Assembly: GCA_003220435.1 (NCBI GenBank)
Contig: QHSL01000093.1
Location: 1 to 42,896 of the forward strand
Length of the DNA: 42,896 nucleotides
From: Candidatus Rokuibacteriota bacterium
GTDB taxonomy: Bacteria > Methylomirabilota > Methylomirabilia > Rokubacteriales > CSP1-6
Direction: 5' to 3'
Position numbers and translations under genes: made by a program. Below the pieces are notes generated by a model. It saw only the letters and a list, made by a program, of their open reading frames with translations. It was not told where the DNA came from and ran no database searches. Below are positions 8,591-13,367 of the stretch, one piece after another. Each line of letters starts with the position of its first letter. Positions within the stretch are counted from its first letter, which is position 1.

Positions 8591-8619
8591 TTGGGAGCCT
8601 GCCGGGCCCGGTGTAGGAT
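8591..8619 (+). promoter_or_regulatory. Candidate sigma70 promoter for the structured RNA / 13-codon locus
   Basis: TTGGGA (8591-8596), 17-bp spacer, TAGGAT (8614-8619); each box matches four of six consensus bases. A start near 8626 would give a transcript of about 350 nt ending at the T-rich tract at 8965-8973. Confidence 0.35.
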
Positions 8620-8771
8620 TGGGGCAAATCGACCGGGAGCGTCACAGCGCCCCAGCAGCGTCCCCGCCGACAATTCCGCCGGCGGCCGACGTGGTCGAGC
8701 CCCGGGCCGGGAGTCGGCATCCGGTTCTGGGTAGGTGGGAACTGGGCCCGCGTGGCGGCCTTGCCGAGAAT

Positions 8772-8787
8772 AGGAGGTGATCCAGCC
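8772..8787 (+). promoter_or_regulatory. Extended Shine-Dalgarno, 16-nt match to the 16S rRNA 3' end
   Basis: AGGAGGTGATCCAGCC is the exact reverse complement of the conserved bacterial 16S terminus GGCTGGATCACCTCCT. Ordinary ribosome binding sites here match 5-9 bases. One base separates it from ATG 8789; the AGGAGG core is 11 nt from the ATG. Confidence 0.7.
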
Positions 8788-8788
8788 G

Positions 8789-8830
8789 ATGTGTAACCCT
8801 ACGGTGATCTGTGAGGTGGTTGCCTCCTAG
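8789..8830 (+). CDS. 13-residue peptide MCNPTVICEVVAS (leader peptide or micro-protein candidate)
   Basis: ATG at 8789 to TAG at 8828, with two Cys (positions 2 and 8). The case for translation is the 16-nt perfect ribosome binding site directly before it. The stop codon sits in a small hairpin (TGCCT/AGGCA, 8821-8833), and four more stems follow. Possible roles are a stalling or sensing leader peptide, a short functional peptide, or a ribosome-binding decoy in a regulatory RNA. No coding gene follows on this strand, so classical attenuation of a downstream gene is unlikely. I do not recognise a family. Confidence 0.45.
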   Translation: MCNPTVICEVVAS

Positions 8831-8973
8831 GCAGGGTCCACGCTAGCTCTAGGTGGAACGCCTGGGAGTCCAGGCGCCACCGGCCCCGACGGTCCCGCTT
8901 TCACCAGCGGGGCGGCGCGACGCGCGAGTGAAGAGACACAACGCGCCGCAGCCACCGTCGGGGCTTTTCATTT
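8821..8973 (+). ncRNA. Structured RNA with five or more stems and terminal T-rich tract
   Basis: Perfect stems in order: TGCCT/AGGCA (8821-8833); TCCAC/GTGGA (8837-8857); CGCCTGG/CCAGGCG with GAGT loop (8859-8876). A three-way junction follows, closed by the 11-bp stem GCCCCGACGGT/ACCGTCGGGGC (8883-8893 with 8954-8964) and holding CCCGCT/AGCGGG (8894-8911) and GCGGCGCG/CGCGCCGC (8912-8949). TTTTCATTT follows immediately. Adjacent helices that abut without gaps, plus the terminal T-rich run, argue for a folded transcript with its own terminator. It does not match a known family I can name. Function unknown. Confidence 0.55.
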
Positions 8974-9034: not shown

Positions 9035-9235
9035 TCAGGCTTTGCGGACGTTGGCGGCCTGAAGACCCTTCGGGCCGCGAGTGACCTCGAACTCCACGCG
9101 GTCCCCTTCGGACAGGCTCTTGAAGCCCTGAGCCTGGATGGCGCTGAAGTGAACGAACACGTCCTCGCCGCCCTCCTGCGTGATGAAGCCGAAGCCCTTC
9201 GCGTCGTTGAACCACTTCACTGTTCCCTGTGCCAT
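9035..9235 (-). CDS. Cold-shock protein, CspA family (copy 1)
   Basis: 66-residue single cold-shock domain: [18 protein letters not shown] carries the RNP1 motif (KGFGFI) and VFVHFSAI the RNP2 motif, which bind single-stranded RNA or DNA and melt RNA structure. ATG 9235 follows AGAGGAAA. It lies 72 bases downstream of the helicase gene with hairpins between, and differs from the copy at 10527 at only five of 66 residues. Known family roles are RNA chaperoning in cold or growth transitions. Confidence 0.95.
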
Positions 9236-9307: not shown

Positions 9308-10444
9308 CTAATTCCGCGGGACCGAGTGCCCAAGGTGCCGCTCGATCGTGCGCAGCTGCTCATGCTCCTCGGGAGCCGCGAAGCTCGTGGCGCGGCCGCT
9401 CGCCTCGGCGCGGGCGGTGCGGCCGATCCGGTGGATGTAGTCCTCCGCCGTGTGGGGGAGGTCGAAGTTGACGACGTGAGCGATGCCGGGCACGTCGATG
9501 CCGCGCGCCGCGATGTCCGTGGCGATCAGCACGCGATACCGGCCTTTCCGGAATCCGTCGAGCGCCTCGCGGCGCTGCGTCATCGAGCGGTCGGCGTGCA
9601 GGCGGGTGGCGCGATGGCCCGCGGCCACCACGGCGCGCGCCACCCGATCGGCGCGATGCTTGGTGCGCGTGAAGACCAGCGTCTGCCCGCGCTCCTCGCC
9701 GAGGAGCCTGAGCAGCAGCGGTGTCTTCTCCTGGATCGGCGTCTTGTAGAGCACCTGCGTGACCTTCGCCACCGGCTTGGCGACGACGCCGACGTCCACG
9801 CGGATGGGCCGCACGAGATGCCGGCGCACCAGCGCCTCGACCTCCGGCGGCATCGTCGCCGAGAAGCAGAGCGTCTGGCGGTCGAGCGGCGTGGCGCGCA
9901 GGATGCGCTCGACCTGAGGCGCGAAGCCCATATCGAGCATCCGGTCGGCCTCGTCGAGGACGACGAGGCGGACGCCGCCGAGACTCAGCGTCGCCCGCTC
10001 GAGGTGGTCGATGAGCCGTCCGGGCGTCGCGACGACAACCGCGGGCCTCGTCCGTAGTCCGGCGAGCTGCGGCGCCATGGACTCTCCGCCGATGAGCACG
10101 ACGGTCTCGATGCCGCGCGCGCGCCCGAGCGTGCTGAAGGTCTCGGCGATCTGGAGCGCGAGCTCGCGTGTGGGCGCCAGCACCAGCGCGGCCGGCGCCG
10201 AGCGTCCGAGCCGCGCCGGGGTTCCGGCGAGGCGCTCGCCCGCTCCCGCGAGGAGCTCGATGGCTGGGATCGCGAACGCGGCGGTCTTGCCGGTACCCGT
10301 CTGCGCGCAGCCGATCAAGTCACGGGCCTCGAGAATCGGGCCGATCGATTGAGCCTGAATGGGTGTCGGAGTGGAATAGCCGGCGCGGTCGATCGCCTCG
10401 AGCATCGCCGGGGTGAGCGGGAGATCTGTGAATGCACGAATCAT
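9308..10444 (-). CDS. rhlE: DEAD-box RNA helicase, RhlE type
   Basis: ATP-dependent RNA unwinding enzyme of 378 residues. Motifs in order: Q motif with GYSTPTPIQAQSI, Walker A AQTGTGKT, PTREL, TPGR, DEAD in VVLDEADRMLDMGF, SAT in CFSATMPPEVE, then LVFTRTKHRADRV, TDIAARGIDVPGI and HRIGRTARAE. It ends shortly after the helicase core, lacking the long basic tails of CsdA/DeaD, which fits RhlE-like proteins. It sits between two cold-shock genes on the same strand, suggesting joint use in RNA remodelling. ATG 10444 has only a weak GAAAGG upstream. Confidence 0.93.
   Translation of the reverse strand: MIRAFTDLPLTPAMLEAIDRAGYSTPTPIQAQSIGPILEARDLIGCAQTGTGKTAAFAIPAIELLAGAGERLAGTPARLGRSAPAALVLAPTRELALQIAETFSTLGRARGIETVVLIGGESMAPQLAGLRTRPAVVVATPGRLIDHLERATLSLGGVRLVVLDEADRMLDMGFAPQVERILRATPLDRQTLCFSATMPPEVEALVRRHLVRPIRVDVGVVAKPVAKVTQVLYKTPIQEKTPLLLRLLGEERGQTLVFTRTKHRADRVARAVVAAGHRATRLHADRSMTQRREALDGFRKGRYRVLIATDIAARGIDVPGIAHVVNFDLPHTAEDYIHRIGRTARAEASGRATSFAAPEEHEQLRTIERHLGHSVPRN

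Positions 10445-10913: not shown

Positions 10914-13367
<2,454 letters not shown>

Follow-up and report, generated by a model that had tools for sequence, protein, structure and literature searches.

The window analysed here is a stretch of 42,896 nucleotides (nt), positions 1-42,896 of contig QHSL01000093.1 of Candidatus Rokuibacteriota assembly GCA_003220435.1. It carries on the forward (+) strand a gene for a structured RNA with a 13-codon micro-open reading frame (micro-ORF) and a site complementary to the 3' tail of 16S rRNA. This site, AGGAGGTGATCCAGCC at 8772-8787 (+), is an exact reverse complement of the 16S tail and constitutes a candidate ribosome-loading site (extended Shine-Dalgarno, SD), the pairing of which is kept in relatives. 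It occurs in the window as a single exact copy, and 3 sites were found at up to 3 mismatches against 0.39 expected by chance. A single G (8788) separates it from the ATG (8789-8791) of the micro-ORF MCNPTVICEVVAS (8789-8830, +), whose 13 codons (8789-8827) are followed by TAG (8828-8830), start and stop being kept in relatives.

The last codons of the micro-ORF contain GGTGGT (8815-8820, +), the 5' strand of helix P1, which covaries across phyla with the 3' strand GCCACC (8876-8881, +); the CACC of the latter hardly varies within the family. A hairpin, TGCC-TCCTA-GGCA (8821-8833, +), contains the stop codon, and its CCTCCTA is paired with the SD in the minimum-energy fold. Hairpin P2 (8837-8857, +; TCCAC 8837-8841 with GTGGA 8853-8857) is a variable domain and helix 2 of the covariation test, and hairpin P3 (8860-8875, +; GCCTGG 8860-8865 with CCAGGC 8870-8875) is helix 3 of the covariation test. 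The terminator domain P4 (8883-8968, +), for which covariation is strong, comprises an 11-bp stem (8883-8893/8954-8964), an inner hairpin (8894-8898/8907-8911), a second arm and a T run (8965-8968), with TTTTC directly 3' of the closing stem. The exact complement one base before the ATG, the frame with its stop codon in a hairpin and the stems with the 11-bp-closed terminator domain had all been pointed out in a preliminary description made from the sequence alone, and all of them stand. In five copies from the Methylomirabilis group (L047, L048, L049, L112 and L120) the P2 domain is approximately 50 to 130 nt longer, and the extra nucleotides contain AGGTAGGGT-like repeats.

The promoter suggested in the same description (8591-8619, +), with −35 TTGGGA (8591-8596), a 17-nt spacer and −10 TAGGAT (8614-8619), coincides with conserved columns when relatives from Methylomirabilota are aligned, but a simple promoter/terminator scan with strict consensus gave no match for the RNA gene in the window. 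Transcription would start at approximately 8625-8628 and produce a structured 5' leader of approximately 145 nt (8626-8771, +), characteristic of the Rokubacterial type. In an alignment of this leader (A3), 34 pairs were predicted, and for 16 of them one sequence or more had both partners changed. In the actinobacterial and Methylomirabilis types the leader, as judged from promoter spacing, extends only approximately 10-15 nt before the site. The RNA strand folds more stably than its shuffles (z = −3.8); since the reverse strand also beats its shuffles (z = −6.1), folding energy alone cannot assign the strand.

An Rfam search with permissive filters gave one credible match in the window, to RF02471 (Ms_IGR-5), over the full length of the model (1-184/184) with 28.7 bits and E of 7e-5. 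RF02471 is listed in Rfam as an 'Actinobacteria sRNA' (small RNA) of uncharacterised function, first seen in Mycobacterium smegmatis. The window copy scores under the gathering cut-off (28.7 versus 45 bits), and the curated threshold on its own would leave it out of RF02471. The match was nevertheless taken as homology rather than chance, because the window locus was the sole RF02471 match at E <= 0.1 across the 5.4-Mb source genome, because in 7 genomes of other groups the top RF02471 match was a locus found independently by DNA pattern, and because eight copies from two other families of the same phylum, found by the covariance model R1, gave 50.3-72.3 bits with RF02471, above the cut-off and at identical coordinates. 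R1 was built from 27 relatives with window-type sequences only, and its convergence with RF02471 on the same Methylomirabilis-type loci indicates common descent with accepted RF02471 members. The window copy is, as judged by sequence comparison, a divergent member of a wider group containing RF02471; the statement in the preliminary description that no named family has this layout therefore has to be dropped. For the non-actinobacterial loci no other Rfam family reached its gathering score.

RF02471 and the window copy share, in the same order, the 16S-complementary 5' end, the micro-ORF with GAG GTG near its end, the hairpins, the CACC strand and the terminator domain. The window copy differs in its 145-nt leader, its loops and the stop-codon hairpin with CCTCCTA. 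The RF02471 entry has the type sRNA, and the same frame is present in the actinobacterial copies that were read. IGR-5 is expressed in M. smegmatis (PMC10454040), a homologue was validated by RNA-seq in Streptomyces (S. lividans; PMC8079986), and ribosome-protected reads were reported for a homologue in M. abscessus and M. smegmatis (PMC4974804). The literature search for a named function of Ms_IGR-5 returned only mentions of its transcription and of ribosome reads, and in the literature searched the frame, the 16S-tail and the P1 features were not found stated. These features, and the extension of the RNA family across phyla, are new.

A DNA search found approximately 40 relatives, with 97 % identity within the genus and down to approximately 75 % in other families of the order and class. 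With R1 the RNA was found in 82 of 95 Methylomirabilota genomes and in 51 of the 53 near-complete ones, almost always as one match per genome; two matches occurred only in G048 and G054, in each of which one copy is split by an insert. When 84,980 species were scanned with an exact pattern, 78 loci matched, two of which (Cellulomonas L086 and Oscillospiraceae L094) look like chance matches. The remaining pattern loci include Rokubacteria, NC10, Binatota, Acidobacteria, 'Deltaproteobacteria'/Myxococcales, Planctomycetota and Patulibacter. R1 matched in 14 of 149 Acidobacteriota genomes, 29 of 141 Myxococcota and approximately 7 of 149 Planctomycetota, the last count omitting weak 49-nt matches, many of which are probably 16S tails; it matched in none of the 149 Bacillota genomes, which is no proof of absence. 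In Methylomirabilota the RNA gene is ancient, single-copy and close to universal, and at least four further groups have it; in all, it spans at least five phyla with one copy per genome. The preliminary description had proposed to look for conservation and covariation in relatives, and both are present.

One copy (L097, CAMBFS010000068.1) comes from a metagenome-assembled genome (MAG) titled Klebsiella pneumoniae and is almost identical to 'Deltaproteobacteria' L057, so the label is probably wrong. A phage origin was rejected, as the DNA pattern (one pattern only) had no match in viral contigs.

Pairing of the site with 16S rRNA was measured against the consensus tail GGCTGGATCACCTCCTTTCT, taken from the 16S genes of relatives; in relatives L171-L173 the tail was read as GCGGCTGGATCACCTCCTTTCT. 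Contiguous pairing with the consensus tail had a median length of 17 nt, in the Rokubacterial-like as well as in the actinobacterial-like set, and at least 13 nt were paired in 133 of 141 distinct sequences from relatives (97/104 and 36/37). Variation in the core of the site mostly keeps wobble pairing (A/G opposite U, C/T opposite G), which suggests that it is the + strand RNA that pairs, rather than the minus strand acting as a 16S mimic. A function of the minus strand as a mimic of the 16S tail was also rejected because the G-U pairs of the helices and the frame are both on the + strand. An antisense copy or relic of a 16S gene was rejected too, as the similarity stops at the tail, the core changes for the most part keep wobble pairing on the + strand and no rRNA family matched. 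Sequestration of the SD by CCTCCTA as a switch common to the whole family was discarded since copies of other than the Rokubacterial type show no covariation for it (1298/3000), although CCCC is found close to the stop in three Acidobacteria whose site is GGGGG.

In helix P1, GGTGnnnnnn in the last codons of the ORF is paired with nnnnnCACC just 5' of the terminator. P1 strands from the same species paired with −15.3 kcal/mol versus −11.7 kcal/mol for strands exchanged between species, and none of 5000 shuffles was as good; in 11 further loci the values were −11.8 versus −9.0 kcal/mol (2/5000). In the Myxococcota copy L231, GGUG is changed to GAUG and CACC to UAUC, and nine pairs are retained. 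For the whole structure (alignment A1), 35 cells were changed on both sides versus 12.1 in shuffles (0/500). The terminator helix was strongest in covariation, with 7 of 10 tested pairs changed on both sides.

The micro-ORF is conserved in its start, frame and stop. In the non-actinobacterial set every one of 57 distinct sequences has an in-frame ATG, GTG or TTG 1-7 nt past the core site and, five codons beyond GAG, a stop; among the 30 sequences of the actinobacterial type, 29 keep the stop position and 22 a common start codon. Altogether 86 of 87 distinct sequences share the position of the stop codon, the search pattern for part of the set having prescribed only the first T of the stop, and an in-frame start was present in 79 of 87. 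TAG, TAA and TGA all serve as the stop, and the other two frames never stop there. Purifying selection on the peptide was not found. In codons 2-8 of 27 distinct Rokubacterial ORFs the ratio of nonsynonymous to synonymous changes (pN/pS) was 1.53, with 10, 8 and 4 changes at codon positions 1, 2 and 3, respectively, so that third positions change least. The comparison of sequences has shown that the amino acids of the micro-ORF are not conserved as in a protein. In the actinobacterial-type copies L151, L153, L159, L161, L163, L164, L065 and L117 there is CTG, ATC, ATA or nothing clear at the place of the start, and in such copies initiation at a rare codon driven by the strong 16S pairing is possible. 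In Planctomycetota L194 and L197, GAGGTG is out of the start-codon frame, yet TAG or TAA still closes the start frame very close to the usual position.

What is conserved is a set of three features, namely pairing with the full tail of mature 16S rRNA, a terminated micro-ORF without a selected product and a helix common to the last codons and the terminator strand. The reading proposed for this set is a free-standing, single-copy, translated structured RNA in which short translation opens P1 and thereby controls the shape or the lifetime of the RNA; we hold it tentatively, at somewhat less than an even chance. According to this proposal 30S subunits would be very strongly recruited at the 5' end via the 16S tail, and the ribosome would read 10-18 codons, melt P1 and terminate at the 3' edge of this helix. 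Since the ribosome must melt P1 to reach the stop at this edge, translation and P1 would be mutually exclusive. Ribosome occupancy would choose between P1-closed and P1-open RNA and would protect the 5' end from nucleases, and selection would act on the act of translation, not on the peptide. The RNA would act in trans or report ribosome availability via its conserved 3' half; as no gene consistently follows the RNA, the output is likely in trans or the lifetime of the RNA itself. The GAGGTG motif is located approximately 9 nt 5' of the stop codon, and at this distance it could detain a ribosome during termination; this is speculation because two Myxococcota copies lose this spacing while keeping P1.

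Several points weigh against this proposal. The source MAG has no small-subunit rRNA gene that could be found, and for this reason the consensus tail had to be used. Eight of the 30 actinobacterial-type sequences are without an in-frame ATG, GTG or TTG start, and in the Myxococcota copies L230 and L231 the stop is no longer at the fixed position and the frame continues for some codons, yet both copies keep P1. The P1 anchors were hand-picked beside the terminator. The shuffles ignore relatedness, and their significance is therefore somewhat overstated, although the compensating changes between phyla are independent of that. The study reporting the ribosome-protected reads warns that such reads of small RNAs may reflect co-sedimenting ribonucleoproteins (PMC4974804). 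The P1-open/closed switching and any action in trans are what we infer from these patterns. The main idea of the preliminary description, a stand-alone RNA that engages ribosomes, finds good support in the comparison, given the structured gene and the full-tail pairing; the capture of ribosomes itself is suggested by the base pairing together with the published reads on the mycobacterial homologue.

Other readings account for parts of the conserved set. In Bacillus mRNAs (e.g. the cry3A leader), STAB-SD is a 5' stabiliser, an SD-like sequence close to the 5' end to which 30S subunits bind. The RNA described here also has an SD-like sequence with predicted 30S binding, presumably near a 5' end, and it might be stabilised in a similar way, a 30S subunit near the 5' end guarding an abundant regulatory RNA from 5'-dependent nucleases while the ORF just releases ribosomes. 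The location of the site approximately 10-15 nt from the inferred transcript start in the actinobacterial and Methylomirabilis-type copies speaks for this, as does the coverage of the whole 16S tail by the pairing. STAB-SD, however, belongs to long mRNAs and has no start codon after it, whereas the RNA here is free-standing with both start and stop kept; a pure 30S-binding site requires neither of these codons, and in the Rokubacterial type the site is preceded by a structured leader of 145 nt. Such a stabiliser is on the whole unlikely, but it deserves serious attention. A decoy that ties up 30S subunits via the 16-20 bp tail pairing, of the ribosome-sponge or hibernation type, would explain why the pairing far exceeds what initiation requires, and is in line with the wide, single-copy presence and with the homologue among ribosome-protected RNAs (PMC4974804). 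It would demand very high RNA abundance and has no need for a start codon, an in-frame stop or a covarying helix in the last codons, and it is considered improbable.

The kept start, frame and stop could also mean that the 10-18 residue peptide is the product, with the structured RNA as its 3' untranslated region and terminator, and -VICEVVAS or -EV[VA]xS recurs in many phyla. This recurrence is accounted for by the helix, since the EV codons also form P1 and its covariation explains them, and beyond EV the peptides vary freely between phyla. With pN/pS at 1.5 over codons 2-8, and with GAGGTG out of the start frame in L194/L197 while the short frame still ends nearby, a micro-protein gene, also among the suggestions of the preliminary description, seems quite improbable: the kept frame supports it and the codon changes do not. 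The combination of a short ORF, mutually exclusive helices and a terminator resembles attenuation, but a cis-acting attenuator or leader needs a co-directional gene to control, and none was found: the downstream genes in the window are on the opposite strand, no downstream gene is common across phyla, and convergence is the commoner orientation of the next gene. This makes a cis-acting attenuator hardly credible, and for the same lack of a consistent following gene a stalling-peptide sensor working as an ordinary cis-attenuator, a sensor having also been put forward, is unlikely. Transfer-messenger RNA (tmRNA, RF00023) is similarly free-standing, approximately 350 nt long and provided with a short reading frame, but the RNA described here has no tRNA-like end, no resume codon without SD and no tag-like ending. 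It was rejected, as neither the tRNA/tmRNA scan nor Rfam calls the locus tmRNA, and no tRNA-like domain and tag frame were found.

The proposal of translation-controlled opening of P1 can be carried further, to a housekeeping RNA, shared across phyla, that would sense free ribosomes by capturing 30S subunits with the whole tail, having 10-18 codons read without a selected product and reporting the supply via the translation-gated P1. This extension is doubtful, though a real possibility. Since homologues are present in Mycobacterium smegmatis and Streptomyces, for which deletion, ribosome profiling and structure probing are standard techniques, the mechanism is directly testable.

The genes around the RNA were compared as well. 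No neighbouring gene is common to the phyla, and downstream genes were found on either strand. In the window both 3' neighbours are on the minus strand, encoding a CspA cold-shock protein (9035-9235) and a DEAD-box helicase (9308-10444), in agreement with the earlier remark that no gene on the same strand follows. These cold-shock and helicase genes adjoin each other and are convergent with the RNA, and minus-strand downstream genes of equal length recur in many Rokubacteria; this neighbourhood is probably merely local synteny, not common to different phyla. In the mycobacterial-type copies L141, L142 and L143 the RNA lies approximately 60 nt 3' of a gene that resembles aminodeoxychorismate lyase by sequence reading, with no family search made. 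Further along the window, a 674-residue ORF (11343-13367, +) matches MreB only at residues 343-668, and its called start is probably too early.
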